Source: Spinacia oleracea | Taxonomy: Eukaryota; Streptophyta; Magnoliopsida; Caryophyllales; Amaranthaceae | Assembly (NCBI RefSeq): GCF_020520425.1 | Contig: NC_079492.1 | Coordinates: 142,294,361-142,358,360, forward strand | Direction: 5' to 3' | DNA: 64,000 nt | Shown: piece after piece, positions 7,414 to 47,062 of the stretch | Layout of the letters: every line of letters starts with the position of its first letter | How positions within the stretch are numbered: position 1 is the first letter of the stretch | The notes under the pieces: model-generated | Told to the model about the DNA's origin: nothing | Databases searched by the model: none | Seen by the model: only the letters and a program-made list of their open reading frames with translations | Made by a program: the position numbers and the translations under genes

Positions 7414-8754
<1,341 letters not shown>

Positions 8755-9384
8755 TAAGCAATCTATACTCAAAAGCTCGTACAGTCGTACATTTTCTTGA
8801 TCCGTCCGACCTGCCAGTCTAATTAAAACTATTTTGCATGGTTAAAATGCTAATAATTTTTATTTTATTGTTTAAATATATATTAATTACATGTCTACAT
8901 TTGTGTGAATGTCAATAACATAAAAAATAATTAATTTAATTTTACATAAAATTTAGAATTTTTTAATGCTTAAGTAATCGTCCGAACCCTCCATATCCAT
9001 ATCAATTAACTTCTAAAACTCGTCTAAACCTCACCTACCTAACCCATCAGAGCTACATTAGGCTCTGAAACCTGTCGTAACCCACCAAACCTATCAAACC
9101 CACTCGAACTGCACGACCTACCAAATCCATCGGACCCACTCGACCTGCACAACCCACCACGACCCATCACGTATTGTATCTACTTTATCCAACACAACTC
9201 ATGACCTGACCCACCATGACTTTCAATCAGATGGTTCATGTGTCAACTATCCCTCCCACAACTCACCAAACTCACCCATGACCCACCAACCAAATACCAA
9301 AATCACCAAATACCAAAATAATGCAATAAATAAAAACAATAACAAATAAAGTAGACTTTACAATAACAAAGAAATAAATTGTGC

Positions 9385-15555: not shown

Positions 15556-18233
<2,678 letters not shown>

Positions 18234-25388: not shown

Positions 25389-25577
25389 CTAATCCACAAG
25401 CTACAACAAATAATTAAGGTTGATCATTGTATGACAGAAATTTTAATAAAGGATGTTTTTCACTCTTTGTAAGGCTATTTATAGTTATAAACTTATCATT
25501 AAGTCTTCTTTGATTTCTACCCTAAGCTATCCTCAACGATTTCTATGAATTTAATTGTATGTGTTAAACTTGTATTA
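25389..25577 (+). pseudogene. Third ANS remnant: 3' end, left half
   Basis: ATCCACAAGCTACA opens a stretch that follows the ANS stop-codon region and 3' UTR (18225-18340), with some extra sequence, through TTCTTTGATTTCTA, CCTAAGCTATC and GTTAAACTTGTATT. It stops at the poly(T) start of the retroposon and resumes at 41946. No coding part survives, so this is the footprint of another ANS duplication or a transposed tail. Confidence 0.7.
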
Positions 25578-26172
25578 ATTTTTTTTTTTTGACGGGTACG
25601 GGAAAATTTCATTAAAATAAAGTCATACGGCATCTACAATCAAATTTTTCCCTAAACAAGAACAAGAACAAATCTAAAATAGAACAACAAATTCTTTTTT
25701 CTAAATAACTAAATGAGCAAATACTGTAGAACGGCTCCGGAATCATAGTATATGTGTAGCCATGAAATAACTTCGATGTCAAAGCATATTTTCGTTGTAT
25801 GGATCGACCTCGTTATAAACGTTAAAGTCATCTTAAAAATTGAATATGCTTTATATCCCGGATTGATCTTGACCTTCAAAGTGCATACTTCATAGAAAAA
25901 ACACAATTTCCACCATACACAAACAACAACCCTCGACTCGATACCCACACAAAAGCAGAAAACTTTTCGAAAAGAAAGGAGAAAAAACCCTGTCTTTCAA
26001 GGGAGAATCGTTCCTCTCTAGAGGAGGACGCATTATTAGACCTACAAAAACAAAAACTAAAGGAAAGAACACAAGAAAATAAAGCAATTGGGAATATTCA
26101 CCGATAAAAACCGATGGAAGCCCCTCAAAAATTACCAGTGAAGGCTAGGGTTTGGAGGAGAGAGAGGGGAGC
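25578..26172 (-). mobile_element. Poly(A) retroposon (LINE-tail or SINE-like), split by copia
   Basis: On the minus strand the element ends in TTTCCCGTACCCGTC followed by poly(A). Its 5' piece lies beyond the copia insertion at 41918 to about 41945 (GAGCCGTGGAGAGGAGAG on plus). Together they form a body of about 620 bp. The ends are flanked by AACTTGTATTAATTTT on the left and AACTTGTATTTAATTTT on the right, a target duplication of about 15 bp as made by LINE machinery. No intact reading frame. Confidence 0.7.
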
Positions 26173-26573
26173 TGTCAGTTTTCACCTCTTTAGGATGAAA
26201 ACTTCTTGAGAGAATTAGAGAGAAAATGCTTAAGAAGAATGAAGATATTATTTCATTGAATGAATTCGAATAATTACAGCAGGAACTATATTTATACAAT
26301 CTGTATGCTAACTTCTATGAGGTGTTTCCACCAATCAAAACATTCTAAATGTACAGCTCATCATTGTCAGTTTATTGCATAAATAGATCATCAACTAACA
26401 GCTCTAACAACTCTAACAACCTTCCTTAAATCTAGGGAATCAGTTAGCCACTGCTTCTAGAAGTTGTTGAGCTGGTCATTGTGTGTACAAGGTTGCTGCT
26501 GCTTGTTTTGCTTTGCTTTGATATGTTGGTTGCACGTGTGGTGCAAGGCTGAATACCATGCTGAATACCAACA
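26173..26573 (-). repeat. 3' LTR of outer copia
   Basis: 401 bp, begins TGTCAGTTTTCACC and ends AATACCAACA on plus. Nearly identical to 41517-41917. Confidence 0.93.
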
Positions 26574-26587
26574 CCCCCCCCCCCCTC
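26574..26587 (-). promoter_or_regulatory. Polypurine tract of outer copia
   Basis: On minus, a GAG followed by a G run lies immediately before the 3' LTR, the usual plus-strand DNA primer site. Confidence 0.8.
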
Positions 26588-26589
26588 AA

Positions 26590-27176
26590 ACTAGGCATGG
26601 GAGAGACATTGATCATGCCAAGTTTGGTAGATAATTGCCTGTGTTGAGCACTTGGTAAGATCTTTGTGAATATATCAGCCTGTTGATTCTTAGTAGGCAA
26701 ATAACTTAACTGAAGTAGACCCTCTAGGATCTTGTCCCTGGTGAAATGGCAATCCACCTCAATATGTTTAGTTCGTTCATGAAAGATTGGGTTGCTTGCA
26801 ATATGAATTGCTGATTGGTTGTCACAGTGAAGCTCAACTGGTTTGAGATTGTGAACACCAAGCTCCTCTAGTAATCTGACAACCCATGTAACTTCTCCTG
26901 CAGCCTGTGACATGGCTCTATATTCTGCTTCAGAAGAGCTCTTGGAGATAGTAGATTGCTTTTTAGACTTCCAACTTATAGGTGAATTGCCCAACAGAAG
27001 AATGTAACCAGTTACAGATCTTCTTGTAGTTGGACAAGAAGCCCAATCAGAGTCAGAATATGCCTGAAGAGTGAGCTAATCTGTAGCTCTCAACAAAATT
27101 CCTTGGCCAGCAGTCCCTTTGATATATCTTAGAGTATGAATGAGTGCATCAACATGCTGCAAAGTGGGAGAATGCA
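26590..27176 (-). pseudogene. Outer copia pol: RT tail and RNase H
   Basis: Continues the polyprotein after the nested element. It reads on from SQFM as HSPTLQHVDALIHTLRYIKG, then the RNase H region with SDSDWASC, SSEAEYRAM, HCDNQSAIHIA and the H-rich end. A TAG at 27078-27076 interrupts it. The inserted element plus its 5-bp duplication is 10,428 bp, a multiple of three, so the frame is preserved across the gap. Confidence 0.88.
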
Positions 27177-27181
27177 TGAAC

Positions 27182-28567
27182 TATTAGGTTATGATACATA
27201 TGACATTACATAGATCATGCGGAAACAACCATTAACCCAGGACAACATATTATTTACACATAATCATATAGCATAATTTAGATGCATACTCTTTGTTGCG
27301 TGCCCTCCCTAGCTGCGCCCGAACCGAACAAGAACAAGTCTTTAGGACTCCAAGTGTCGTCCCTCCGTAGATAGTCCACAGCACGTCCGGATCCGCCTTA
27401 AGATTGACCAACTAGAATCGCCCTTAAGGTACTAGAAAATTTCGGCACTTTATGAGCAAGATGTGTGTTTTAATTTTTCTCTCAAAAAACTCACTTTTGA
27501 ATACTTTGAAACTTGTGTATAAATTATGACCCCTAGGCCTTTATTTATAGAGTTATGGAAAAGGAATCGTAATCCTAGTAGGATACGAATTAATTGAAAT
27601 TAGAATCCTACATGAATTCTATTTAATTAATTTATCCAATTAGGAATAGAAATTTAATCATACACTGACTCTTGTAGATTCAGGAATCACGCATGAGCAC
27701 AAACTCACACACACACGGCAGCCACAAGGGCTGCCCATGCGCGTGCGAGCAGCAGCCCACGCAGCGCGGCCCACGCATCCGTGGCCCTTGGCGCGCGCTG
27801 GGCCTGCCTTGCGGTAGGCCTGGGCGCTGCCTTGGCTGGGCTTGTGGCGCGCATGCTTGCTGGGCGATGGCCCCGGCTTCGTGCTGGGCCTTCGTCCGGC
27901 AAGCCTCGTCCGATGCTAATTCGTACGATACGCTTCCGATTAAATTTCCAGTTCCGGAATTTATTTCCGATACGAACAATATTTAATATTTCCGATTCCG
28001 GAATTAATTTCCGTTTCGAACAAATATTTAATATTTCCGTTTCCGGAATTATTTTCCGATTCCGGTAATATTTCCGATTCTGACAATATTTCCGTTTCCG
28101 GCAATATTTCCGATTCTGGTAATATTTCCATTTCCAATAATATTTTCCGATACGTACCATGTTTCCGTTTCCGGCAACATCTACGACTTGGATAATATTC
28201 ATATTTCCGATACGATCCATATTTCCGTTTCCGGCAATATCATCGTTTCCGGAGTATTCATTTCTTGCCTGTGACGATCTTAGCTCCCACTGAAACCAAG
28301 ATCCGTCGGTTCCGAATATTCATAGATGGAGTATTTAATGCCATTAAATACTTGATCCGTTTACGTACTATTTGTGTGACCCTACGGGTTCAGTCAAGAG
28401 TAAGCTGTGGATTAATATCATTAATTCCACTTGAACTGAAGCGGCCTCTAGCTAGGCATTCAGCTCACTTGATCTCACTGAATTATTAACTTGTTAATTA
28501 ATACTGAACCGCATTTATTAGACTTAACATAGAATGCATACTTGGACCAAGGGCATTATTTCCTTCA
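27182..28567 (-). repeat. 3' LTR of inner copia
   Basis: 1386 bp. It contains a GC-rich block (27715-27910) and then a run of more than fifteen TTCCG motifs in an ~20-bp rhythm with AATATT spacers (27930-28260). The open frames on both strands here are LTR by-products. Confidence 0.93.
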
Positions 28568-28578
28568 GTCTCCCACTT
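28568..28578 (-). promoter_or_regulatory. Polypurine tract of inner copia
   Basis: On minus AAGTGGGAGAC directly precedes the 3' LTR (TGAAGG). Confidence 0.6.
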
Positions 28579-29431
28579 GTCCTTAGGGACAAGTGTGCAT
28601 TTCCTAATTCCTTTGTCGCTCGATGCTTGCTCTTGAACATAAGGTAAGAGTTGTCATCCTTATTATGTCCAGAGGTGTTCCTCGGTTTCAGAGTTCAACT
28701 GATCAAATAAACAGATAATCATAGCCTATGATTCATCCGAGCACGGCCATGCATTTCACAGTTTCTAGCTCTCCGAGTGGCCTTGTACAACTTTTAAGCA
28801 TCTCATCCCGATTTATGGGAGGACAATCCCAATCTTGCGATCTTGAGATTAGACTTCGTTTGATAGGTGATTACCTGAGCGTTGCCTTTATAGCCTCCTT
28901 TTACGGTGCGACGGTTGGTCAACGTCAAAGCAACCAGTTCTCAAACAAGTAATCTCAAATCACTCAGGTATTGAGGATTTAGTGTCTAATAATTTAATGA
29001 AATTTACTTATGACAGACTTTCATCTCTTACAGTAAAGTTTCATAGGTCTTGTCCGATACTAGTCTTCCCAAAGTAAGTATCTATGCAAATGATTATGAC
29101 ATTGCCATGTCCACATAGTTCAAGAAACAGAACTACTAGTCATCTTGCATTCTAATCGTCTAACGTTTTCTATGCGTCCAATTTTATAGAAAACTCCGAT
29201 TAGGGACCATTTTCAACCTTTGACATTCAAGTTCACTTGATAGACATTTCTTAGTCACAGGACTGGTCCTGACAGTCTATCTTGAATATATCGTCAAGTT
29301 GAAGGGACTCATCATTTAATAAACCACAAATTAAATGGAAAAATGAATTCCTTTCATTTATTGTGAATGATTAACCAATAATGTTTTACAAAGATTTAAA
29401 CTCTAAAACTTTAAAACATTAAACAGAGACA

Positions 29432-32400
29432 TCAAAGCCATTCTCCAATATGCTTGATTCCCATAGCTGCAGTGTGCGAGTTGTGCTTCGCTTGCGGCAG
29501 AGGTTTAGTTAATGGATCTGATATGTTGTCATCAGTTCCAATTTTGCTTATCTCGACTTCTTTTCTTTCAACGAACTCTCGTAGAAGGTGAAATCTACGA
29601 AGTACATGCTTGACTCTCTGGTGGTGTCTAGGCTCTTTTGCCTGTGCAATAGCTCCGTTATTATCACAATACAGGGCTATTGGTCCTTTAATGGAGGGGA
29701 CTACACCAAGTTCTCCTATGAACTTCCTTAGCCATATAGCTTCCTTTGCTGCTTCATGTGCAGCAATGTACTCCGCTTCAGTTGTAGAATCCGCAATGGT
29801 GCTTTGCTTAGCACTTTTCCAGCTTACTGCTCCTCCGTTGAGGCAGAAGACAAACCCAGACTGTGATCTGAAATCATCTTTGTCGGTTTGGAAACTTGCG
29901 TCCGTATAGCCTTTAACAATTAATTCATCATCTCCACCATAGACCAGGAAGTCATCTTTGTGCCTTTTCAGGTACTTCAGAATGTTCTTGGCAGCAGTCC
30001 AATGCGCCTCTCCTGGGTCTGACTGGTATCTGCTCGTAGCACTGAGTGCGTACGCAACATCCGGGCGTGTACATATCATAGCATACATTATTGAACCAAT
30101 CAATGATGCATATGGAATCCCATTCATTCGTCTACGCTCATCAAGTGTTTTTGGGCACTGAGTCTTGCTTAGAGTCATTCCATGAGACATGGGTAGGTAG
30201 CCTCGCTTGGAGTCTGCCATCTTGAACCTATCAAGCACCTTATTGATATAAGTGCTTTGACTAAGTCCAATCATCCTTTTAGATCTATCTCTGTAAATCT
30301 TGATGCCCAATATGTACTGTGCTTCTCCTAGATCCTTCATCGAAAAACATTTCCCAAGCCAAATCTTGACAGAGTTCAACATAGGAATGTCATTTCCGAT
30401 AAGCAATATGTCGTCGACATATAATACTAGGAAAGCAATTTTGCTCCCACTGACCTTCTTGTATACACAAGATTCGTCCGCGTTCTTGATGAAACCAAAG
30501 TCACTGACTGCTTCATCAAAACGTATATTCCAGCTCCTGGATGCCTGCTTCAATCCGTAGATTGACTTCTTTAGCTTGCATACCTTTTTAGCATTCTTTG
30601 GATCCTCAAAACCTTCAGGCTGTGTCATAAACACAGTTTCTGTTAAAACGCCGTTTAAGAAAGCAGTTTTGACATCCATCTGCCATATTTCGTAATCGTA
30701 ATATGCAGCGATTGCTAACATTATTCGAATAGACTTTAGCATTGCAACTGGTGAAAAGGTTTCATCGTAATCCACACCGTGGACTTGCCTGTAACCTTTT
30801 GCAACCAATCTAGCTTTGAAAACTTCAAGTTTCCCATCCTTGTCCTTTTTCAGTTTGAAAACCCATTTGCTTCCAATGGCTTGGTAGCCATCTGGCAAAT
30901 CGACCAAATCCCATACTTGGTTTTCAGACATGGAGTCTAATTCAGATTGCATGGCTTCTTGCCACTGCTTGGAGCTAGGGCTCGTCATAGCTTGCTTGTA
31001 AGTCGCAGGTTCATCACTTTCAAGTAATAGAACGTCATAGCTCTCGTTCGTCAAAATACCTAAGTACCTTTCCGGTTGAGATCTATATCTTTGCGATCTA
31101 CGCGGGGTAACATTTCTAGATTGACCATGATTCTCACCAGATTCTTCTAAAGATCTCTGAGTTTCATCCTGAATGTCATCTTGAGCATTCTCTAGAGTTT
31201 GTTGTTCGACTCGAATTTCTTCGAGGTCTACTTTTCTCCCACTTGTCATTTTGGAAATGTGATCCTTCTCCAAAAAGACACCATCTCGAGCAACAAACAC
31301 TTTGTTCTCAGATGTATTGTAGAAGTAATACCCCTTTGTTTCCTTTGGATAGCCCACAAGGATACATTTGTCAGATTTTGGATGAAGTTTGTCTGAAATT
31401 AATCGTTTGACGTATACTTCACATCCCCAAATCTTAAGAAAAGACACATTTGGAGGCTTTCCAAACCATAATTCGTATGGAGTCTTTTCGACAGCTTTAG
31501 ACGGAGCTCTATTTATAGTGAGTGCAGCTGTATTTAGTGCATGTCCCCAAAATTCTAATGGAAGTTCGGCCTGACCCATCAACCTGACCATGTCTAGCAA
31601 GGTTCTGTTCCTCCGTTCTGACACACCGTTCCATTGTGGTGTTCCAGGAGGAGTCAATTCTGATAGAATTCCACATTCTTTTAGATGGTCATCAAATTCA
31701 TAGCTCAGATATTCACCGCCTCTATCAGACCGCAGTGCCTTAATCTTCTTGCCTAATTGATTCTCTACTTCACTCTGAAATTCCTTGAATTTGTCAAAGG
31801 ATTCAGACTTATGCTTCATTAGGTAGACATAACCATACCTACTGAAGTCATCAGTGAAAGTGATAAAGTAGCTGAAACCACCTCTAGCATTTGTACTCAT
31901 TGGTCCACATACATCTGTATGGATTAAACCCAATAGTTCATTTGCTCTTTCTCCAACTTTGGAGAAAGGTTGCTTTGTCATTTTGCCAAGTAAACATGAT
32001 TCGCATTTACCATAATCCTCTAAGTCAAATGGTTCTAGAATTCCTTCCCTTTGAAGTCTTTCTAAGCGTTTCAAGTTTATATGGCCTAATCGACAATGCC
32101 ACAAATAGGTGAGATCTGAATCATCCTTTTTGGCCCTTTTGGTATTTATGTTATATACTTGTTTGTCGTGATCTAATAAATAAAGTCCATTGACTAATCT
32201 AGCAGATCCATAAAACATCTCTTTAAAATAAAACGAACAACTATTGTCTTTTATTATAAAGGAAAATCCCTTAGCATCTAAGCAAGAAACTGAAATGATG
32301 TTTTTAGTAAGACTTGGAACATGGAAACATTCTTCCAGTTCCAAAACTAGCCCGGAGGGCAACGACAAATAGTAAGTTCCTACGGCTAATGCAGCAATCC

Positions 32401-33394
32401 GTGCTCCATTTCCCACTCGTAGGTCGACTTCACCCTTGCTTAACTTTCTACTTCTTCTTAGTCCCTGTGGATTGGAACATAAGTGTGAGCCACAACCTGT
32501 ATCTAATACCCAAGAAGTTGAATTAGCAAGTATACAGTCTATAACGAAAATACCTGAAGATGGAACGACTGTTCCGTTCTTCTGATCTTCCTTTAGCTTC
32601 AAGCAATCTCTCTTCCAATGCCCCTTCTTCTTGCAGTAGAAGCATTCGGATTCAGAAGTGGGTTGACTGACCTTCCTCTTTGCAGATTTGGCGCCAGTTT
32701 GCTTAGTTGGGCTGGCCTTGTTGCCACCTTTCTTAGCATTCCTCTTCTTTCCAGATTTCTTGAACTTGCCCCCACGCACCATAAGCACATCCTGCTTATC
32801 ACTTTTGAGCGTCTTTTCAGCGGTCTTCAGCATACCGTGAAGCTCAGTGAGCGTTTTGTCCAGACTATTCATACTGTAGTTCAGTTTGAACTGATCATAC
32901 CCGCTATGAAGAGAATGGAGGATGGTGTCTATAGCCATTTCCTGAGAAAATTGCTGATCCAGCCGACTCATATTCTCAATGAGTCCAATCATTTTGAGAA
33001 CATGTGGACTTACGGGCTCGCCTTTCTTAAGCTTGGTCTCAAGAATTTGCCTATGAGTCTCGAATCTTTCGACTCGAGCCAGATCTTGGAACATGTTCTT
33101 CAACTCACTGATGATTGTGAAAGCATCTGAGTTGATGAACGTTTTCTGCAGATCCGCACTCATGGTGGCGAGCATTAGACATTTCACATCCTTGTTGGCA
33201 TCAATCCAACGATTGAGGGCAGCCTGAGTGACCCCGTCGCCTGGAGCTTCGGGCATCGCCTCATCTAGGACATACTCCTTTTCTTCCTGCATAAGAACTA
33301 TTTGCAAGTTCCTTTGCCAGTCAAGGAAGTTTTTCCCGTTCAACTTCTCCTTTTCGAGAATTGATCGAATGTTGAATGAATTGTTGTTTGCCAT
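29432..33394 (-). CDS. Inner copia gag-pol polyprotein
   Basis: An uninterrupted 1320-aa frame; the start at MANNNSF is preferred over an upstream Met because it begins the conserved Gag. In order: Gag (about 10-200); zinc knuckle CX2CX4HX4C (251-264); aspartic protease DTG (298-300); integrase zinc finger H433, H438, C464, C467, and D494, D557, E593; reverse transcriptase with YVDD (992-995); RNase H from about 1160 (YTDASF, TTEAEY, YCDNNGA). All catalytic residues I can check are present. It makes virus-like particles, copies the RNA and integrates the DNA; gag and pol are in one frame, as usual for copia. No stop or frameshift is seen. Confidence 0.95.
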   Translation of the reverse strand: MANNNSFNIRSILEKEKLNGKNFLDWQRNLQIVLMQEEKEYVLDEAMPEAPGDGVTQAALNRWIDANKDVKCLMLATMSADLQKTFINSDAFTIISELKNMFQDLARVERFETHRQILETKLKKGEPVSPHVLKMIGLIENMSRLDQQFSQEMAIDTILHSLHSGYDQFKLNYSMNSLDKTLTELHGMLKTAEKTLKSDKQDVLMVRGGKFKKSGKKRNAKKGGNKASPTKQTGAKSAKRKVSQPTSESECFYCKKKGHWKRDCLKLKEDQKNGTVVPSSGIFVIDCILANSTSWVLDTGCGSHLCSNPQGLRRSRKLSKGEVDLRVGNGARIAALAVGTYYLSLPSGLVLELEECFHVPSLTKNIISVSCLDAKGFSFIIKDNSCSFYFKEMFYGSARLVNGLYLLDHDKQVYNINTKRAKKDDSDLTYLWHCRLGHINLKRLERLQREGILEPFDLEDYGKCESCLLGKMTKQPFSKVGERANELLGLIHTDVCGPMSTNARGGFSYFITFTDDFSRYGYVYLMKHKSESFDKFKEFQSEVENQLGKKIKALRSDRGGEYLSYEFDDHLKECGILSELTPPGTPQWNGVSERRNRTLLDMVRLMGQAELPLEFWGHALNTAALTINRAPSKAVEKTPYELWFGKPPNVSFLKIWGCEVYVKRLISDKLHPKSDKCILVGYPKETKGYYFYNTSENKVFVARDGVFLEKDHISKMTSGRKVDLEEIRVEQQTLENAQDDIQDETQRSLEESGENHGQSRNVTPRRSQRYRSQPERYLGILTNESYDVLLLESDEPATYKQAMTSPSSKQWQEAMQSELDSMSENQVWDLVDLPDGYQAIGSKWVFKLKKDKDGKLEVFKARLVAKGYRQVHGVDYDETFSPVAMLKSIRIMLAIAAYYDYEIWQMDVKTAFLNGVLTETVFMTQPEGFEDPKNAKKVCKLKKSIYGLKQASRSWNIRFDEAVSDFGFIKNADESCVYKKVSGSKIAFLVLYVDDILLIGNDIPMLNSVKIWLGKCFSMKDLGEAQYILGIKIYRDRSKRMIGLSQSTYINKVLDRFKMADSKRGYLPMSHGMTLSKTQCPKTLDERRRMNGIPYASLIGSIMYAMICTRPDVAYALSATSRYQSDPGEAHWTAAKNILKYLKRHKDDFLVYGGDDELIVKGYTDASFQTDKDDFRSQSGFVFCLNGGAVSWKSAKQSTIADSTTEAEYIAAHEAAKEAIWLRKFIGELGVVPSIKGPIALYCDNNGAIAQAKEPRHHQRVKHVLRRFHLLREFVERKEVEISKIGTDDNISDPLTKPLPQAKHNSHTAAMGIKHIGEWL

Positions 33395-34959
33395 ATTAAA
33401 AACTACAATTGAAAAGAATAAACAAATAAATAACCATTCACAGTTTCTCTTAATAAACTTAAATTCTAGCATACATGCATAATTCAATGTTTATTAAGCA
33501 TTTTATTCAAGTTATGTGTTCCGGCAGGTGTGAATAAAATGATTCCAAGATCCTAAAATCATTGAAGAACTAAGCACAGTTTGTCGACTTAATCCTAGAA
33601 CATCTTAGGTAAGCAAAAGCCTTTTGCTAATAGTCTAGAAACTATTCTTGGTTGATAGGTACGTCTAAGAACTTATTAGGTAAACCTATCGAATTTGCCA
33701 CGACATAAAAGGACTCCTTACTTATATCGTTGAGTTTCACCAAAACTAACATGTACTCACAATTATTTGTGTACCTTGCCCCTTTAGGACCAATAAGTAA
33801 CACCTCGCTGAGCGAAAACTATTACTAGATTGATGTAAAGGATATCCAAGCAAGTGTATATTTTGGCATGGCACCTTTTAACTCAATTTTTAAGTTTGGA
33901 ACTTAAGGCTCTTACTATGTTGGTTAGATTTTAAGTGAACTAAAATCCTTAATCATGCAACATAATCAAGCTTTTGATCTCATGCATTTTAAGACATATT
34001 TAAAGCAATAAATAACTTAAAACATGCATAAGATATTTGTGATCTAGTATGGCCCGACTTCATCTTGAAGCTTTGACTTCAAAGTCCGTCTTGAAAATCT
34101 CCGTGGGAGGCACCATTTTCTTCAAATAGGATAAGCTATAACTAATTACAACTATTTGATGGTTCGCAGACCATATTTGAATTGAAAAATAACTTTGGTA
34201 CTTTAGACCAATTACATTCAAATTAATGGTACGCAGACCATATTTTCTATCCTATTTGGGCCATACTAGTCACTTCATAACCTGCAAAACAGTACATATA
34301 CAATATATACCATTCACCCATTCATTATCATGAATGGCCCACATAGCTGGTTAGTAAAACACATTATGCATCACGTAAACATTTGCAGCAATTAATCAAG
34401 GGCACCAATAATCTACCAATTATTCAGTCCTTATTAATTCTAATCAAGTTGTTTTAACCTTAAGGATTTGTAGACCTAATCAAGAGTTTATGACTAAAAA
34501 GCGCTCCCACTTAAACCAATAAATTCATATGCTTTACCAATTTTAAACATAAAAATGTATTTCTAGTCCAACCGGAAACATACAAATTTAATTAAAATTT
34601 AAAGCTCATATCAATTTATAATTGAATCCAAAAATTTAATTTAATTTCAGTCGTATTTAAATTAATTCATGATTTTAATTTTAGTAAAATAATTAGAATA
34701 AATAACATTTATTATAATTATAATATTCAAAATTAAAATCCAAGAAAATAATTCAAATTATTAATTTTAAAATTAATTAAAATTACGTGAACTGAAATTT
34801 TCAAATTAAACATTCAAAACGATCTAATCGTAACGCAAACACCCTACGCGTTGCACGCCCATGGACCGTACGCACACAGCCATTGCTGGCCATGTGCGCG
34901 CAGCCCATGCGCTCGTCGCATAGCTGCTGCTTCCCTATCGCAAGCCTCCGCACACATCG

Positions 34960-35160
34960 TGCTCGCTGCGCGCGCGACATCGCTCGCTGGGCGCGCGACA
35001 TCGCTCGCTGGGCGCGCGAGCCATCGCTCGCTGGGCGCGCGACATCGCTCGCTGGGCGCGCGACATCGCTCGCTGTGCGCGCGAGCCATCGCTCGCTGGC
35101 GCGCGACATCGCTCGCTGGGCGCGCGACATCGCGCGCTGTGCGCGCGAGTGATGCTGGGC
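34960..35160. repeat. GC-rich ~22-bp tandem array
   Basis: About eight imperfect copies of a 22-bp unit of the type GCGCGACATCGCTCGCTGGG, some with GAGCCATCG instead of GACATCG. It lies in the leader of the inner copia and can form strong local structure in its RNA. Confidence 0.85.
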
Positions 35161-36202
35161 GCAGCGCTCGTGGCACGCGAGCTTGCGCTCGCTGCGCGCG
35201 AGGCTGCGCGCTCTTGTGCGAGGCAGCGCGCGCTGTGGCGCAGCTCGCTTGCTGTCCACACGCGACTGCCTTGGCTCGCCCTTCGCCCATGCCCATTCGT
35301 TCATTGCTCGTGGCACACGACACAAGGCAGGGCTGCTGCCTTGTGCTCGTGCACTACGCCCTTGCTCATTGCATTCGTGCCGCACGGGCGACGAGCTCCC
35401 TTGCTCGTCGTCGCATGCCCGCATTATACAACACCCCTTAAGGGTAACACGAAGCGTCCATTGCTTCGTGCGTGCAATTTATATGAACGAATCGCATAAA
35501 AATTTAAAATTTATATTTAAAATTAATGACAAATTAATAAATATTATTAATTTCATAATTTTAGGGCGAAAAAATCGAAAATTTATTATCCAATTGATTT
35601 CCGATTGTTATGGATTCAAGTCTAGGTCATAAAAATTTAAAATTTATCGTAAATTTACAATTTTTATGGTGGTTTTTAATCATAGGTTTCTAATTAAATT
35701 ACAATTAATTATGAAAATCAAATTAATTCTAAATTATTCTAATTTTCAACAAATTAATCATAATTACAAATTAGATTGCATAATTAACAAGACTAGGCAT
35801 TCAAACTTGTTAAACATATGCAGTAGGTCAATCAAAAATTCAAGATTTATCAACAAGAATCGCAAATATTTAATTTAACATCTTAAATTTACGAAATTTT
35901 GCATTCGAAAAACTAAAACCTTCGAAAAGTCATAGTTAGGCTTCGAATTTGAGAATTCTGGGTTCGGCAGAAAAATACTATTTTTGTCAAAATTTTAGAA
36001 TGCCTTTTACATGCGGAATTGACACAAAAATCACTCAATTCGGATGAGTAACGAAGAAAATGCCGAAAAACTGCGTACGTATAATTAAATAAACGCAATT
36101 TGCAATTAATTAACAATTACGAAAATTAATCACCCCTTTTAATTCTTGCAAATTTGTAATATTTAACCATGTTCATGCAATTTAGATTATGAAAATAATA
36201 AG

Positions 36203-36217
36203 GGGCTCGTGATACCA
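36203..36217 (-). promoter_or_regulatory. Primer-binding site of inner copia
   Basis: On minus TGGTATCACGAGCCC lies one base inside the 5' LTR. It resembles the initiator tRNA-Met complement TGGTATCAGAGC with small differences. Confidence 0.75.
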
Positions 36218-36218
36218 C

Positions 36219-37604
36219 TATTAGGTTATGATACATATGACATTACATAGATCATGCGGAAACAACCATTAACCCAGGACAACATATTATTTACACATAA
36301 TCATATAGCATAATTTAGATGCATACTCTTTGTTGCGTGCCCTCCCTAGCTGCGCCCGAACCGAACAAGAACAAGTCTTTAGGACTCCAAGTGTCGTCCC
36401 TCCGTAGATAGTCCACAGCACGTCCGGATCCGCCTTAAGATTGACCAACTAGAATCGCCCTTAAGGTACTAGAAAATTTCGGCACTTTATGAGCAAGATG
36501 TGTGTTTTAATTTTTCTCTCAAAAAACTCACTTTTGAATACTTTGAAACTTGTGTATAAATTATGACCCCTAGGCCTTTATTTATAGAGTTATGGAAAAG
36601 GAATCGTAATCCTAGTAGGATACGAATTAATTGAAATTAGAATCCTACATGAATTCTATTTAATTAATTTATCCAATTAGGAATAGAAATTTAATCATAC
36701 ACTGACTCTTGTAGATTCAGGAATCACGCATGAGCACAAACTCACACACACACGGCAGCCACAAGGGCTGCCCATGCGCGTGCGAGCAGCAGCCCACGCA
36801 GCGCGGCCCACGCATCCGTGGCCCTTGGCGCGCGCTGGGCCTGCCTTGCGGTAGGCCTGGGCGCTGCCTTGGCTGGGCTTGTGGCGCGCATGCTTGCTGG
36901 GCGATGGCCCCGGCTTCGTGCTGGGCCTTCGTCCGGCAAGCCTCGTCCGATGCTAATTCGTACGATACGCTTCCGATTAAATTTCCAGTTCCGGAATTTA
37001 TTTCCGATACGAACAATATTTAATATTTCCGATTCCGGAATTAATTTCCGTTTCGAACAAATATTTAATATTTCCGTTTCCGGAATTATTTTCCGATTCC
37101 GGTAATATTTCCGATTCTGACAATATTTCCGTTTCCGGCAATATTTCCGATTCTGGTAATATTTCCATTTCCAATAATATTTTCCGATACGTACCATGTT
37201 TCCGTTTCCGGCAACATCTACGACTTGGATAATATTCATATTTCCGATACGATCCATATTTCCGTTTCCGGCAATATCATCGTTTCCGGAGTATTCATTT
37301 CTTGCCTGTGACGATCTTAGCTCCCACTGAAACCAAGATCCGTCGGTTCCGAATATTCATAGATGGAGTATTTAATGCCATTAAATACTTGATCCGTTTA
37401 CGTACTATTTGTGTGACCCTACGGGTTCAGTCAAGAGTAAGCTGTGGATTAATATCATTAATTCCACTTGAACTGAAGCGGCCTCTAGCTAGGCATTCAG
37501 CTCACTTGATCTCACTGAATTATTAACTTGTTAATTAATACTGAACCGCATTTATTAGACTTAACATAGAATGCATACTTGGACCAAGGGCATTATTTCC
37601 TTCA
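36219..37604 (-). repeat. 5' LTR of inner copia
   Basis: 1386 bp, no difference from 27182-28567 noticed. Should hold the promoter for the genomic RNA. Confidence 0.93.
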
Positions 37605-40600
37605 TGAACTGGCTGAGGGATTGAACAGCAAAAGATATGTCAGGTCTAGTGTGAGTAAGAAAGTTCAACTTTCCCACATAGCATCTATACAATTCTGCAT
37701 TGAAATATTGTTCACCATCTGTTGTCAGCTTCATGTCAAGAGGAAAAGGAGTGACAGTAGGTTTAGACAAATCCCATTCACAATCATGGAGAAGCTCTTT
37801 TGTATACTTCTTCTGTGTTAAAATGTATCCATCAGATGTCTGACTAACTTCAATTCCAAGGAAGAAATTTAGGATCCCTAGATCTTTAATACTGAAAGTA
37901 TTATGTAGATGTTGTTTAAGAGCCTTTATTGTAGCTTCATTAGAGCCTGTGATGATAATATCATCAACATAGACAGCCACCACTGTAATGTCTGCAGAAT
38001 CATGTTTGATGAAAAGAGAATAATCACTCTTTGATTGTATGTACCCTTGGGACTTGAGCTCACAGTGAAGCCTAGCAAACCATTGCCTTGAATCTTGTTT
38101 AAGGCCATAAAGAGATTTATTTAGCTTACAGACATAACCATTGGGAGCTGAAACACCTTCAGGAACCTTCATGTATACTTCTTCCTCAAGAGTGCCATGA
38201 AGAAAGGCATTGTTAATGTCTAACTGGAAAAGTTTCCATTGTTTGCTGGCAGCTAAGCTAATTAGACACCTCACAGTGGCCATTTTGACAACAGGAGAGA
38301 ATGTTTCATGGTAGTCAATACCATATTTTTGTGTGAACCCCTTTGCAACCAATCTGGCTTTGTATCTTTCAACTGAGCCATCTGCATTCTTTTTGATCCT
38401 GTAGACCCATTTACATCCAATGGCCTTCTTTCCTTTAGGCAATAGGACATAATCCCAGGTTTTGTTATGTTGCAATGCACTGATTTCTTTATCCATTGCA
38501 TCTATCCACTTTGAATCTGTAGCAGCTTCAGAATATGTAGTAGGTTCAACCAGTTCCATATGTGCAGCAATGAGAAGCTTATGGTGATCTGGCAATTTGT
38601 CATAAGCCACAAGATTGCACCAGTGTTTTGGAGGTTTGTGACAAACATAATCATTGAAATGAGAGGGTGGTTTGATAGTTCTGGTAGATTTTCTAGGTGC
38701 TGGTGGAGAAGGTGGAGAAGATGGTGGAGTGAAAGAGATGTCAGATGTGGGGAAATTAACAACAGAAATAGACAAGGGAGTTGTGGTTGTAGAATTAGAA
38801 GAATCAAGATCTTGTGATGAAATATCAGGTAAATCTGAAGAGTAAGGAGTAGTATTTGGTAAAAAGAATTGAGTGGAATAAGCAACTGATGGATCAGGTG
38901 AGAAATGGAAAGGAAAATGGTGTTCATGGAACACAACATCCCTGGAAACCACTGATTTCTTTGTGTTGAGATTGAGAACTTTGTAAGCTTTCTGATTTGG
39001 AGGGTATCCAAGTAGAACACATGGATCTGCTCTTGGGTCAAACATGGATCTGTTGACCTTAGAGGTAGTAATGTAGCACAGACATCCAAAGACTTTCAAG
39101 TGAGATAAGTCAGGTGGTTGTTTGAATAGCTTCTCATATGGTGTACTGAACTGAATACTTTTTAAAGGCATTCTGTTGATCAGAAAAGTAGCAGTTAATA
39201 TACAATCACTCCAATACTTATCAGGTAGTTTGGACTGAAAAAACAAAGCTCTTGCAGTTTCAAGAAGATGTTTATGCTTTCTTTCAACCACACCATTTTG
39301 CTGAGGTGTGTGACTACAGCTTTTCTGTTGAAGAATTCCTTTGCTAAGAAACAATTCCTTCATTGCACCTTCTGTCAAATCAGGTGCATTATCTAATCTA
39401 ACTGATTTAACTGTAAAACCAAAATGATTCTCAACATACAGTAAAAAATCAGTCATAATTTTGACAGAATCTGTTTTATTTCTCATTAAATGAGTCCAAG
39501 TCATCCTAGTGTAATCATCCACAATTGTTAAGAACTGATTACATCTAGAAGAATCAAGTACAGAGTAGGGCCCCCATACATCTACATGTAACAAGTCAAA
39601 GGGCTGTACTGACTTAATAGTGCTAGTGGGGAAAGGGAACCTTGTTTGCTTAGCTAATGGACAAATCTGACAAAAACATTCAGCTAGGCAACCTTTGACA
39701 TTAATGTTCTTAATATTCTTTATTTTTCCAAAAGAAATATGTCCTAGTCTAAGATGCCAAAGTTTAGCTTCTTCAACTTCAGATGCCATGCTGGAAAGAG
39801 CATAATTGTGTGACATTGTACTGCTATCAGATGCCAACAACTCTTCATTCAAACAATACAGGCCTTTGTCCAATCTACCAAGCAGAGTATGCTTGTTCTT
39901 GGAAAGGTCCTGTGCAAAACATTCATTATGTGTGAATAAAACTGAACACTGGATATCATTGCAGAGTTGAGAAATACTAATCAGGTTGAACTGGAAACCT
40001 AGAACATACAACACATTCCTAAGTGTTATATTATTTCCTAGGTCAATTATACCTTTGTGTGTTACCTGTAATTCTGTTCCATCAGGAATTGTGATGGTGT
40101 GTTGTTTATCATCAACAGATTCTAACTTACTGAACATTTTTTTCTCTGAACACATGTGATCACTTGCACCACTATCTAGAATCCACTTAGCTTTAAATTT
40201 AGAAAGGAGACAAAATGTACCTCTCAATTGAGTAGTAGTTTCTAAACCAAGAGAACCAGAACCAGAACATTCGGCTTGGTTAGCAACTTTCTGAGTGTTA
40301 AGCAGGCCCAAAATCTTGTTGTATTGTTCTTCTGTAAATGTGGCATGAACCATTCCTGTATCTCCCTCAGTTGGACTTTCCTTTTCAGTAAACTCTTCTA
40401 ACTGAGCAGCTGCTGCTACTCTTTTGCCTCTGCCTTTGAAATCCTTAGGATAGCCATGTAGCTTCCAACATTTATCAACAGTGTGATTCTTCATTTTGCA
40501 ATGTTCACAGTATAAATTGTTTCTACTGTAAGTAAAGTTTCTTGGTTGATTTCCACCTATGTTTTGCATGCCAGAACTAGAACCATAGTTAGACTTATAT

Positions 40601-41352
40601 GGCCTATTATCAGTGAACTTTCTTGCAGTGAACACAGTAGATTCCAAGTTGTGATTTCTGTTGCTATTAACTTCTTTCTGTTGTTCTTCTTGAAGCAATA
40701 ATCCATATGCTTTAGAGATTGTTGGAAGTGGACTCATCATGAGAATAGTGCTTTTAGAGTGATCATACTTCTCATTCAATTTCATCAAAAACTGAATCAA
40801 CCTTTGATTCTGTTGAGACTTCAGAAGTTTCTGTGTGAGAGTGCAATTACAGCCAGTGCATATACAAGATGGTAAAGGATCCAAGCCATCTAGTTGATCC
40901 CAAAGAAGTTTGATCTTAGTGAAAAATCCTGAGATTTGCTCATCATCATCTTGATTCAAATCACATAGTTTCTGCTGAACTGAGAATAACTGTGGACCAG
41001 ATGATTGAAAAAATCTCTCTTCAAGATCTAACCAGATATCTCTTGCTGTTTTGAGGTACAAAACACTTCTTGCAATTGAAACTTCAAGAGATCCTAACAT
41101 TCAAGAGATTACCAAATCGTTGCACCTATTCCAGATTCTAAAATTTTCTGAGTTTGCTGTTGGTTGATCCAAAGTTCCATCAACAAAACACAATTTGTTT
41201 CTAGCAGACAAAGCTATCATCATAGATCTTTTCCAGTCATTAAAGCACTTGCCATCAAAGACTATATTGACCAATTTTGAAGTATTAAGATCATTATTGC
41301 TGAGATAGTAAGCTGAATTTGGATTGAGTGAAGAATCAGTATCAGTAGGCAT
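37605..41352 (-). pseudogene. Outer copia gag-pol, 5' part
   Basis: Starts at 41352 (MPTDTDSSLNPN). An in-frame TGA at 41103-41101 breaks Gag after NDLVIS, and the frame then stays open to the nested insertion at 37604. Visible: zinc knuckle (CEHCKMKNHTVDKC), protease DSG (WILDSGASDHMC), integrase zinc finger (HLRLGHIS, CQICPLAKQ) and DDE region (QQNGVVERKHKH), reverse transcriptase with YVDDII and SLYGLKQDSRQW. The D in LKQDSRQW replaces the usual A. The rest of pol is at 26590-27176. Confidence 0.93.
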
Positions 41353-41504
41353 TCTGAAGAGAACAAAGATGAAATTCTACAGAATTTCAGCTGCTGAAAA
41401 ACAGAATCAAGGATTCTAAATTGAGAACAACTTGATCAATTGATCAAGCAATATAGAAGAAGTAGAAATTTACGGAAACAATTCAGGCAGGATCTAATGA
41501 TCTT

Positions 41505-41516
41505 GCTCTGATACCA
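41505..41516 (-). promoter_or_regulatory. Primer-binding site of outer copia
   Basis: TGGTATCAGAGC on minus, directly inside the 5' LTR: complement of initiator tRNA-Met. Confidence 0.9.
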
Positions 41517-41917
41517 TGTCAATTTTCACCTCTTTAGGATGAAAACTTCTTGAGAGAATTAGAGAGAAAATGCTTAAGAAGAATGAAGATATTATTTCAT
41601 TGAATGAATTCGAATAATTACAGCAGGAACTATATTTATACAATCTGTATGCTAACTTCTATGAGGTGTTTCCACCAATCAAAACATTCTAAATGTACAG
41701 CTCATCATTGTCAGTTTATTGCATAAATAGATCATCAACTAACAGCTCTAACAGCTCTAACAACCTTCCTTAAATCTAGGGAATCAGTTAGCCACTGCTT
41801 CTAGAAGTTGTTGAGCTGGTCATTGTGTGCACAAGGTTGCTGCTGCTTGTTTTGCTTTGCTTTGATATGTTGGTTGCTCGTGTGGTGCAAGGCTGAATAC
41901 CATGCTGAATACCAACA
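41517..41917 (-). repeat. 5' LTR of outer copia
   Basis: 401 bp, TG...CA on plus, differs from the other LTR at about four bases. Confidence 0.93.
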
Positions 41918-41945
41918 AGAGCCGTGGAGAGGAGAGTCAGGAACA

Positions 41946-42040
41946 CCAAACTAACTTGTATTTAATTTTGGTATATGTGATAATGTGTGACTTGATCATG
42001 CATATTAATTGTTTTCACATTATACACGAAGTTAATTTAT
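41946..42040 (+). pseudogene. Third ANS remnant: 3' end, right half
   Basis: GATAATGTGTGACTTGATCATGC and CACATTATACACGAAGTTAAT follow the ANS downstream flank at 18345-18400. Together with 25389-25577 this makes one interrupted copy. Confidence 0.65.
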
Positions 42041-42180
42041 ATTTTGATTTCCATGTTCTACAAATTCTTGAAATGTATATTTCCTCTATTTCTTTACCTG
42101 CGCCTTTTAGGTCGGGGACAACACTAAAAAATGAAGCAAATATCAAGAACTCCCATGCGACAGCAAATAAATTAGGTAGA

Positions 42181-45100
42181 TTTTTTTTATTTTTTTTACA
42201 TTAGCTTACTAAACAACAACTACATAAAACTAGTAAATGATACTAAATTTGCAGCCGCTCTTTTTTCTAGGTTATGTGCTTGATCAACTCGCTGCCTATC
42301 CACTTTATGAATGCTACACCAGGAAAATCTCTTACCTACTCGCTTGATTTCATCTATTGTCCACCGCATCTGAATTTCTATTGAATCATCTTCCAAGAAC
42401 ATATGAACCAGTACCTGAGAATCAGTGAGGATAGTAACTTTTTCCAGGCGTGCTTGATTGGCCCACTACAAAGCAAGGAGGCAGCCCATTGTCTCAGCAT
42501 GTAAAGCAGTTGTTGTAGTCCCAGAATATGCTCCACCTAAAACATTTCCATCTGCTCTGTTGTGGTCTTCCCAAACCCAACCCAACCCCGCATTGGTCGT
42601 ATTCTTGTGCCAAGAACCATCCACAAGAAGCATATATGTTGGACCAGTAGTACCAGCATCACTGATGATAGCTCTAGAGAAACCATCCACAAGAAGCATA
42701 TATGTTGGACCAGTGGAATACTTGGTTCGATGTAGAAGTTGTAAAGAATTGCCAAGCTTCTTACTGAAAATATCATGTTGATCGAGCCCTTCTTTCACTA
42801 AAGCAAAAACTGAAGCGATAGTGGTGATGGCATTCTTGAAAATGTGGTTATTCCTCGATAACCACAGAGCCCATTTAGTGCTAATGAAATAGACATTTCT
42901 TTGATTATTCTTTCCATCCTGGCGTTGAAATAGTCGGATATATTTCAGAAACCAATCCACAAAGGAAATGGTTTCATTGATTTCTGAATGGATCGCAAGC
43001 AAACCATCCCTCCAAACGTGTTTTGCAATACTACAAAAACAAAAAATGTGCTGGATACCTTCATCTCCATTCGCACAAGTATCACATTTTATATTCACCT
43101 CAACCCCCCTGTGTCTAAGATTCACCTTAGTTGCAATTCCATTATGAAAACGTTTCACAAGAAAATCTTCCATTTAGGAGGAATTTTCATAGACCACAGG
43201 TTCTTGAAATAATCAGAAGACGGTCTATTATGGCTTAGAGTCAAGTCTTCTACAACTAACATTGCATAAGCAGTTTTAACTGTAAACTTACATGACTTGT
43301 GATAACGCCAGTAAAGAGTATCCTCTTCATCTTGAGAAGGCAGCTTCATACTCACAATTCGGCGAGCATGATAAAAATCAAAACTTGCTTTGATTCTAGT
43401 ATGATTCCATTATTTGCCCGAAGGAAGAATAAATTGATTAACCCTCCAATCTCTCGCATTCTGAAGGTGGACGTCTGAATTGTACACCGAAATGTCTCCT
43501 AGAACCCATATATCCTTACCTGCCACCACTCGCCGACCATTCCCGATTTTCCAATCACAACCTTTTAGGAGAAGGTTACTAGCTCAGCACAAACCTCTCA
43601 TTCCCCATGAAAAACTTTTCCCAACAAACCTAGCAGAAATTCCTATTATTAGTGGCATTGAAAATTTCCTCCCACAAATCCCTGCCAACAACGATTGAGG
43701 AGTATTGAAAATCCGCCAAGCTTGTTTCATCAGTAGAGCCTTATTTAGAGATTACATTCCCCTAATTCCCAAACCTCCCATACCCTTAGAAAGCTGAATA
43801 GTTTTCCTATTAACCTAGTGCATACCAGAAGTATTATTATTAGACCAGAAATTTTTTGCCAGAATTGAATCGACTTTGAATGCAACTGAAATTGGAACTT
43901 CCATACAAGAAAGAACATGTGTCGACATTGCAACAAGGACCGTGTTAATTAAAATCAGCTTTTGAGATTGGAAAGAGGCACATAATTCCAAGAATTAACC
44001 CTAGCAGCGACCTTATCGACATGAACTGAAAGTTGGAGTGCTTAGGACCAACCAAATCCACAGGAACACCCAAATGTGTTGACAAAGAAGGAACCAGGTT
44101 CATTTGAAAAATGGATTTAAATTTTTGTCTAACATCCACAGGTGTATTAGGACAAACCTTGAAATGAGATTTTTGAAGATTCAGTTGTTGCTCCGAAATC
44201 GCACAGAATCTGGAAATAATGTTGTTCACCTGTGTACAATTGTCCTCTGTAGATTTGAAGAACATAAGGGCATCATCCGCAAAGAAAAGATGCGATATCT
44301 GAGGGCAACCTCGAGTGATGTTAATCCCTTTAAATAAGTGGATATCACTACCCAATTGCAGCATACGGGATAAGACATCCATACAAAAGAGAAATAGAAA
44401 AGGCGATAAAGGATCTCCTTGACGTATTCCACAATTAGGCTTAAACTGATATGAAGTATCACCCTTTAGGAGAACTTTATATGATGCCGTTGAAATACAC
44501 TAGTGGATCAGATGAATCCAATGACAAGGAAAGCCGTAAGCTTTTAAAGATTTCAATAGAAAAACCCAATGAACTCTATCATAGGCTTTTCTCATATCAA
44601 TTTTAACTGTAGCTAGGTACCCAGTACCTTTTCGACGACGATTGATCTTGTCGATAAGTTCATGACTAATGAGAACATTATCCGGCATAAATCTACTTGA
44701 AATGAAATTAAGCATGCTGAGATAGAGAAATGATGGATGGAAGGATGGACTTCATCCTCATAACCAAGCATTTAGAGGCACACTTGTAAATTGTATTACA
44801 TAGACTGATAGGCCTCAAATGGCCTACTTCTTCTGGAATATCGTTTTGAGGAATCATTACCAGGATAGTATGATTCCACTCTTTCAAAAGATAGCCCGCA
44901 ACCAAGAAACTCTTAAAAGCGTCACAAACTGACCTTCCCACTATTTCCCAGTGTAGTTTGAAGAAAGCTGTTGTGAAACCATCAGGACCTGGAGATTTTG
45001 AGTTATCCATTGCAAACATAGCAGATCCTTGTTCCTGGGATTATTGTGGTAGATCTAATTCTCTGAAAACCATGTCAAGATCATCATTATAATAAACATC

Positions 45101-46010
45101 TTGGTTTGAATGAAAAATTTCTTTCAAAGAATCAACCAAAAGACCCTTCACTTGTTCTTGTCCCTCAATCCAATCACCATCTTGATCTTTTAAAATTAGA
45201 ATCTCATTTTTCTTTTGTCTCCTTTTGACCTTAGTATACATCAAGGATGTTGGTAAATCTCCATCTGAAATCCAACGCTCTTTCAATCGTTGCCTCTAAA
45301 ATTTAACTTTAATGGAAGCTTGAGAAAAGGCTTGATCAACCTTTCCCATGTAATCTTCAGCCTGAAATAGATCCCTTATGGAAGTTCCTTCCAAGGTAAG
45401 GTCATCATTCAATTCCTTCCAATTAACACCCCATAACTTTTTAGTAAACAAACACCAACGCTAAATTTTCAAATGAAGTTCAACTAATCACCTAGACAAC
45501 ATAAACATAGGCAACCCTTGACCAGGTGTTCTCCAAACATTGTTAATTACATCAAAAACTTCAGCAAATTGAAGACACCTCAATTTGATATGGTCTGTTT
45601 TTCTAATTTGTCTAGCATCAGTAGAAAAAATAATATCAGCATGATCCGAGGCTAGAAAATGTTGGTTTACAATTTTGCTGTCCGGAAAGGACGAAAACCA
45701 ATCATTAGACATATACCCCCTATCTAATCTCTCTAAAATTAACCCGAGGCCATCTCTTTTATTAGTCCACGTATATCTCGGCCCGGAGAATGGTACATCA
45801 ATAAGTCGACTCTGTAATCTCCAACTTACAATCTCATCCCACACTCGTATCAAATTTGAACCCCCAAGTTTGTCACAATAATCTTCAACTTGGTTAAAAT
45901 CCCCCAAAACTAGGCATTTTGGATACAAATAAAGAAGTTCTAACATTTGAGCCCAAACTAATGGCCTACTTCCAACAACGGGGAACCATAAAAGAACATA
46001 ACGTAGTAAA
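42181..46010 (-). pseudogene. L1-type LINE, 5'-truncated and decayed
   Basis: Minus-strand blocks in order: endonuclease C-terminal part (45946-45488: VLGDFNQ, YTWTNKR, SDHADI), reverse transcriptase N-part (45019-44500: SPGPDGFTTAF, RPISLCN, KIDMRKAYDRVHW), the catalytic FADD (within 44382-43945), zinc-binding domain (43355-42985), RNase H (42660-42220: LLVDGSW, HAETMG), then a T-rich 3' tail near 42181-42200. Frameshifts and stops separate all blocks. The first part of the endonuclease and any ORF1 are missing. A 34-bp segment of the RNase H is duplicated (42617 and 42680). Confidence 0.88.
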
Positions 46011-47062
46011 TATTAACACTAGATTCTTACACTACACATTACAAAGTTGGTTGAGCAAAAAACACCCGTGATGGCTAAATTACTCCACCCAAAAACAGCC
46101 AAGCCACCACTAGTACCTATTGGTTCTACTCCACAAGAGAAGGTAGGATTACAACCCTTAAATTTTAGGTATTGATGGTAAATATAAAATATGTATATAA
46201 GGGTAAACTGAGTATTTGGTTTATGAACACACTAAAAAGCATGTGAATATGCATACCATAAAAGGAAATGACGCAAGTAATATGCAACTTCCTTAAAAAA
46301 AATGGTACAATTAAAAAAAAAACGGATGTAGTATAACACTTCTACCTGTAATTTGCTACCCCGTATAATTGTTCACTTATCTAGTTATCCTCGCCTATGA
46401 AAAAAGAGAGGTTTTAGATTCAATTAGTTTAGATAAGTTTAGGTTAGAGAAGTTTACACTTTTGATTTTACTCTCTTGCAACCTGGTCCAATAAAGTCTA
46501 ATAATTTTAAATGTGGTCCATAAGTTTAGATAAGTTTACAAGTTCATTTCAGTCCGAGAGATTTCACGTGAAAGGAACACACCAAAAACGTTGTTGGTTG
46601 TATTATTTAGTCTAACAACTAGTTTTGTCGAATTAATGTTTATTTTTGACAATCAGTTGTTGGTTGTTTATATAGGTTGTTTCCCTCGACACCAGACTTG
46701 TGTGCAACTTAGTCCACATCGAGCCATCCACAATCCAACCACGTGTCAACCAAAGAAAAGCCCAAGAACCTAGAATGACAAGCCAATAAAAAACATCCCA
46801 CCTGGCCACCTTGATGACATGGCAGATTTACTGAAATCAAAACCAACGCCAAAAAAACAATTCTAATTTCCAACCCAACAGAAGAAGTATAGATCTTTTA
46901 GAAAGCCCCAATTAATTTCCCTCCACACAATACACCATTTGCCTTATCTCCAAAAGATCCCTCCAAACTCAAACCACAATGCCCAGAAAATTCCTTTACT
47001 ATTTCCCCTGTGAAGAATGCTCTGTTTGAGCTGAAATAATTTTTGAAAAGTGGTAAAAAAAA
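46011..47062. other. Intergenic and PGRL1 upstream region
   Basis: No gene seen. The last ~200 bp (CA-rich leader, GCCTTATCTCC at about 46940, an inverted I-box-like GATAAG) probably hold the PGRL1 promoter and 5' UTR. No clear TATA box, as is common for photosynthesis genes. Confidence 0.4.

Follow-up and report, generated by a model that had tools for sequence, protein, structure and literature searches.

Does the repeat-filled 3' tail of an anthocyanidin synthase (ANS) gene in spinach (Spinacia oleracea) record a series of insertions that can be ordered and dated, and was ANS itself lost from the locus? The window, by which we mean the whole 64,000-nucleotide stretch analysed (C6:142294361-142358360), contains what is left of a duplicated ANS gene (copy C), its 3' tail, into which a retroposon is inserted; the retroposon is split by a Ty1/copia element of 5.3 kb (copia 1), which is in turn split by a second Ty1/copia element of 10.4 kb (copia 2). 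Three ordinary retrotransposition events are almost certainly recorded in this tail, and all four steps are dated in the order that the nesting demands. All sister copies used in the comparisons come from the window's own genome (894,210,420 bases in 242 contigs were searched), which makes them paralogous copies rather than copies from another accession. Feature coordinates are collected in Table 1.

Insertion order and age of the nested elements

Target duplications are present at all three levels of the nest. The retroposon, of about 610 bp, non-coding and with a poly-T run at 25579-25590, lies between AACTTGTATT-AATTTT at 25567 and AACTTGTATTTAATTTT at 41953, copies of 16 and 17 bp that are one indel apart (a duplication of about 15 bp had been described in the original prediction); the poly-A tail together with this long duplication places the insert among the retroposons that have no long terminal repeats (LTRs). 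Its family is dispersed in the genome, with 219 candidates, 40 of which were scored and are, the window copy aside, 76-93% identical. Nine of the 11 sisters that were fetched continue through the site at which copia 1 interrupts the window copy, one of them (L028) by just 3 bases, and the matches of the other two stop short of this site. Target duplications of their own were seen by eye in 6 of the 11. An empty site of the retroposon in an ANS tail was not seen in the window's own genome.

The LTRs of copia 1, each 401 bp long, differ at exactly four positions after alignment, where about four had been counted before (26178, 26410, 26486, and 26534; three transitions and one transversion), and they end in TG...CA (TGTTGG...TGACA on the element strand). 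On the minus strand, its domains follow the order gag_pre-integrs, rve, SH3_retrovirus, and RVT_2, with the integrase ahead of the reverse transcriptase as in Ty1/copia elements, the rve match (29.7 bits, E 8.3e-07) lying under the Pfam cut-off of 32.6. Two in-frame stops were noticed in this element besides the copia-2 insertion. In an alignment of eight LTRs of the family, the variant base at three of the four positions occurs in a single LTR, one of the pair of this element; the right LTR differs at three sites from each of two other family LTRs (L003 and L004) and at four from its own partner. All seven fetched sisters of copia 1 are continuous across the copia-2 site, where they have TGAAC once.

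Within copia 1, copia 2 sits a short way downstream of the RVT_2 match. Its LTRs are, as first described, 1386 bp long and identical (0 differences), with an exact 5-bp TGAAC duplication on both sides, and the short copia-1 flanks joined across it restore the reading TRPDISFAVQSLSQFMHSPTLQHVDAL. Retrotran_gag_2, zf-CCHC, rve, and RVT_2 follow one another in this order, again as in Ty1/copia elements.

Divergence drops inward through the nest, from 14.5% between the tails of copies C and B, through at least 3.5% for the private changes of the retroposon (20 in 575 sites, against 11 sisters) and 1.0% for the copia-1 LTRs, to 0% for the copia-2 LTRs. At 1.3e-8, which an excerpted source on spinach gives as the rate for LTRs (PMC6337768), the difference between the tails corresponds to about 6 million years (My; Jukes-Cantor) and the private changes of the retroposon to a lower age limit of about 2.7 My, both by our own arithmetic. 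The Kimura two-parameter distance of 0.0101 between the copia-1 LTRs, a clock that counts four sites, gives 0.39 My (Poisson 95% range 0.10-0.98) at this rate and, at 6.5e-9, 0.77 My (0.21-1.96). The copia-2 LTRs give zero, with one-sided 95% upper limits of 0.083 My at the first of these rates and 0.166 My at the second. The two LTR pairs are distinguishable in their divergence (4/401 versus 0/1386, Fisher p = 0.0025). Set against the mean Copia age of 1.18 My and the LTR-element peak at about 0.5-0.8 My in the same excerpt (PMC6337768), copia 1 is ordinary in age for spinach and copia 2 is young.

The insertion order and the two-clock reading put forward in the original prediction are supported by these comparisons. 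Nesting with the ANS tail outermost is real, as judged by the junctions, the target duplications, and the sister copies without two of the three inserts, and the LTR identities, in which that prediction had looked for a conflict with the nesting order, agree with it, the inner pair being the less diverged. In terms of mechanism, the poly-A-tailed retroposon would have entered the ANS tail by target-primed reverse transcription, as its tail and target duplication suggest; copia 1 would have integrated into the retroposon via its integrase, and copia 2, from a very abundant family, into copia 1 beyond the reverse transcriptase domain. This machinery is deduced from the families to which the elements belong; what the analysis itself shows is the junctions, the order of insertion, and how the layers compare in divergence.

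Several points weigh against this history. The copia-1 junction, predicted as a GGAGC duplication, does carry a duplication, but an imperfect one, GGAGC on one flank and AGAGC on the other (4 of 5 bases). The LTR difference at 26410 varies in other copies of the copia-1 family and thus may not be a post-insertion change. Moreover, the sites without inserts were seen in paralogous copies of the same genome, with no host site from a second plant genome among them, and for the correctness of the assembly we depend on the published one.

An altered terminal dinucleotide in copia 2

LTRs usually, though not necessarily, run from TG to CA; both LTRs of copia 2 run from TG to TA (U5 ends at 27182 and 36219). 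Such TG...TA ends are familiar from the LTR_retriever literature. Among 40 full LTRs of the copia-2 family that were scored out of 996 candidates, 36 have TG at the plus-strand start, equivalent on the element strand to a U5 end in CA. TA is found in two, the LTRs of the window element, and 36 of the 38 others end in CA. The remaining two have TT at the plus-strand start and are both LTRs of one element (C2:69128273-69138781), whose AGTTC duplication is exact. Three of 30 fetched LTR ends had other changes nearby and were read by eye as TG. A TG...TA structure as the normal end of the family was rejected, since CA is normal in the scored LTRs.

A TA end confined to the window copy was likewise rejected: a genome-wide search for the exact 32-base end found it in 20 places, against 2,683 canonical ends (TG on the plus strand, equivalent to CA), LTRs with any other change inside the 32 bases falling outside both counts. 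Eleven of the 20 lie in elements in which two LTRs or more have TA. These elements number five, namely the window element and those at C4:165.86 Mb, C6:55.02 Mb, C6:129.86 Mb, and C3:117.25 Mb, and the four in which both outer ends are readable have exact target duplications (TGAAC, CAGAC, CTTCT, and TGTTG). The nine other TA ends have no partner with an exact TA end, and in these cases a single LTR may have changed later. As a separate observation, the C3 element consists of three TA LTRs in a row about 9 kb apart (117250266, 117259284, and 117268280; L089-L091), the last of which runs into N, as if two interiors shared the middle LTR.

Outside the two end bases, the window copia-2 LTR has 0 differences from TG-ended LTRs of other elements. 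The nearest neighbour from another element is plainly a TG copy for 5 of 19 TA rows (L095, L096, L097, L098, L101/L102 aside), most of the others being near ties; the tree sampled 38 TG LTRs, 8 from close sisters and 30 from the first places on C1, and itself includes the two end bases and has many branches of low support. Because TA copies lie among TG copies by distance, the TA ends likely had several origins.

In the simplest reading of these ends, the U5 end of the parental 5' LTR had changed, both daughter LTRs inherited the change, and the integrase could still use the altered end. Copia 2 would thus have been copied from a template in which the U5 end was already changed from CA to TA, and would nonetheless have integrated with a normal 5-bp duplication. 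More generally, we hold it to be somewhat probable that, in this abundant spinach copia family, the integrase tolerates an altered U5 end (TA, or AA in one other element), that an inner-end change of the parent passes to both daughter LTRs, and that end mutants occurring naturally in the genome form a series in which the LTR pair of each provides its date.

ANS copies at the locus

Copy B is an intact anthocyanidin synthase by full-length similarity to a solved ANS structure: its top PDB match is 1gp4, an Arabidopsis-type anthocyanidin synthase, at E 2.5e-182 over query residues 5-351 of 352. Spinach ANS is described as functional in an excerpted report (PMC8930957). Copy B apart, the window gave no DNA match to exon 2 at E 0.01 and only weak protein matches (E 1.6 or worse). 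In exon 1, copy A departs from copy B by 5 amino acids and by 12 codons that are changed silently.

The outer flanks of the nest resemble the 3' tail of copy B at 73 of 90 alignment columns on the left (13 mismatches) and 68 of 85 on the right (11 mismatches), ten bases of the copy-B tail, equal to the target duplication, being counted in both alignments. These flanks score 99 (left) and 85 (right), the best of 500 dinucleotide shuffles reaching 34 and 33, respectively. A short 5' piece at 25392 also resembles the copy-B tail (score 43, best of 500 shuffles 38) and is separated from the remainder of the left flank by a gap of about 66 bp. The roughly 66 extra bases of tail C relative to B (25421-25486) have ATTAAG on both borders and reflect either an insertion in C or a deletion in B. 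Genome-wide, the ANS tail search returned the B and C tails alone (three places, three candidates).

In the original prediction, the nest was placed in the tail of a lost ANS gene. This holds for the extra copy C, which is reduced to its tail, but not for the locus: ANS is not lost here, because the intact copy B (16444-18233) lies about 7 kb upstream of the nested insertion.

Alternative explanations

An assembly artefact, in which misjoined repeats produced a nesting or an identical LTR pair that is absent from the plant, is very improbable. Assemblers can collapse identical LTRs, and the canonical ends counted above attest to the many near-identical sisters of copia 2; however, TGAAC is exact on both sides, the copia-1 reading is restored across the insert, every fetched copia-1 sister is uninterrupted at the site, and TA in both LTRs sets the window copia 2 apart from sisters that are otherwise identical over the LTR. 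Moreover, the published assembly that the window's genome matches in size (Monoe-Viroflay), as far as excerpts of its description go (PMC8668906), was built from PacBio reads (about 894.3 Mb in 307 contigs and six pseudomolecules; quality value 46.2; LTR assembly index 20.32). A different objection concerns the TA ends, which could have arisen after insertion by mutation in one copia-2 LTR and gene conversion of the other. The LTRs of one element can exchange sequence, and those of copia 2 are identical. We consider this unlikely, as five elements have TA in at least two LTRs against about 0.07 expected by independent change (our arithmetic, from 20 of 2,703 LTRs and about 1,350 elements), and conversion of the whole LTR fails for two TA pairs because their LTRs differ at 6 and 9 other sites, though a short conversion tract could still explain these. 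For single elements, gene conversion between LTRs after insertion is possible; for the TA series, inheritance of a changed parental end remains the reading that we prefer.

For the ANS tail, a further scenario is that the piece at 25392-42036 belongs to the truncated copy A as its 3' end and was displaced, a segment carrying copy B now parting the two, with no third gene having been lost. Copy A is without a tail and copy C without a body, the genome search found no tail beyond those of B and C, and the A/B introns (73 of 484 bases differ, 15.1%) are about as diverged as the C/B tails (24 of 165 aligned bases), so that A and C could be the two ends of one old copy. Conversely, A and B are only 1.1 to 6.2% apart in five blocks upstream of exon 1, for which gene conversion or uneven rates are needed, and copy C lies beyond copy B, for which a rearrangement is needed. 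We regard this scenario as doubtful, though a serious candidate, next to that of a separate duplicate reduced to its tail. Over 7437-9279 versus 15555-17491, with the five upstream blocks starting from 5348, A and B differ by 3.4% in exon 1, and the sharp step in divergence at the exon-intron border suggests gene conversion between the two copies.

Further features of the elements and their surroundings

TGGTATCAGAGC was seen beside the 5' LTR of copia 1 and GTGGTATCACGAGCC beside that of copia 2, each a candidate primer-binding site for initiator tRNA-Met as judged by the familiar motif. Two identical LTRs of the copia-1 family stand 37 bp apart at C5:8546338-8547176 (L005/L006), apparently an element with almost no interior. 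The leader of copia 2, between gag and the 5' LTR, is 2.8 kb long and contains GC-rich 21-bp tandem repeats of the GCTCGCTGGGCGCGCGACATC type, while 18-bp repeats of the TTTCCGATTCCGG type lie within its LTRs (28035-28272 and 37072-37309). Self-nesting was also observed in the copia-2 family: the copy at C4:121035831-121046185 (L015/L016, target duplication TGTTT) and the TT-ended copy on C2 with its AGTTC duplication each apparently sit inside another copy of the same family.

No long open frame was found in the retroposon (the longest of 7 listed has 79 amino acids), no tRNA-like head with A and B boxes was noticed in it by eye, and ARAGORN, which is not an A/B box test, found no tRNA in the window. 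A fragmented long interspersed nuclear element (LINE) on the minus strand, with zf-RVT and RVT_3 matches, adjoins the ANS tail at about 42160-46012. We rejected it as an extra layer of the nest and count it as a neighbour only, because comparison of its two sides gave no matching target duplication, the longest word in common being 10 bp.

Table 1. Positions of the ANS copies and of the nested elements in the window
Feature	Position	Strand	Remark
ANS copy A	8248..9279	+	exon 1 (8248-8753) and part of intron only
ANS copy B (intact), exon 1	16444..16949	+	open frame once joined to exon 2
ANS copy B (intact), exon 2	17681..18233	+	sole exon-2 DNA match in window at E <= 0.01
ANS copy C, left part of 3' tail	25392..25582	+	closes with left retroposon target duplication (25567-25582)
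Retroposon, larger part	25583..26172	-	poly-A end at left; includes left copia-1 target duplication GGAGC (26168-26172)
Copia 1, left (3') LTR	26173..26573	-	
Copia 1 interior, 3' side	26574..27181	-	closes with TGAAC (27177-27181); in-frame stop 27076-27078
Copia 2, left (3') LTR	27182..28567	-	outer end TA instead of CA
Copia 2 open frame	29432..33490	-	1352 amino acids stop to stop; gag, integrase, reverse transcriptase
Tandem repeats in copia-2 leader	34940..35175	-	21-bp type, GC-rich
Copia 2, right (5') LTR	36219..37604	-	inner end TA
Right copy of TGAAC target duplication	37605..37609	.	
Copia 1 interior	37610..41516	-	gag, integrase, reverse transcriptase; in-frame stop in gag (41101-41103)
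Copia 1, right (5') LTR	41517..41917	-	
Right copia-1 target duplication and 5' end of retroposon	41918..41952	-	duplication reads AGAGC
ANS copy C, right part of 3' tail	41953..42036	+	opens with right retroposon target duplication

Relation to known systems and significance

What the locus presents is an ordinary case of young copia elements nested in a plant genome rich in retrotransposons. It is the same in kind as the nested LTR retrotransposons of maize and wheat, in which inner elements are younger than outer ones and each has its own target duplication; in the present nest, a duplicated gene tail serves as host and a non-LTR retroposon forms the outermost insert. The retroposon resembles the non-autonomous LINE and short interspersed nuclear element (SINE) retroposons of plants in its poly-A tail, in target duplications of about 12-17 bp by eye, in the shortened 5' ends of some copies, and in having no long open frame, differing in that no tRNA-like head was noticed by eye. 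Both copia elements share with the Ty1/copia elements of spinach, as excerpted (PMC6337768), the integrase before the reverse transcriptase, paired LTRs, ages within the recent wave, and the 5-bp duplications seen here, and copia 2 departs from them in ending in TA. LTR ends other than TG...CA are also reported, in an excerpted account, for the Zam group (PMC3601003). The copia-2 family, in contrast to LTR elements without TG...CA, is overwhelmingly TG...CA, with TA scattered within it.

The nest provides a tidy and self-consistent clock at one place and corrects the impression that ANS was lost from this locus. It also yields three insertions whose presence or absence can serve as markers, and predicts in which order these should be polymorphic, copia 2 being the likeliest to be missing in some accessions. 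Beyond the locus, the scattered TA-ended copies could be used to probe how far a plant copia integrase depends on the terminal CA.

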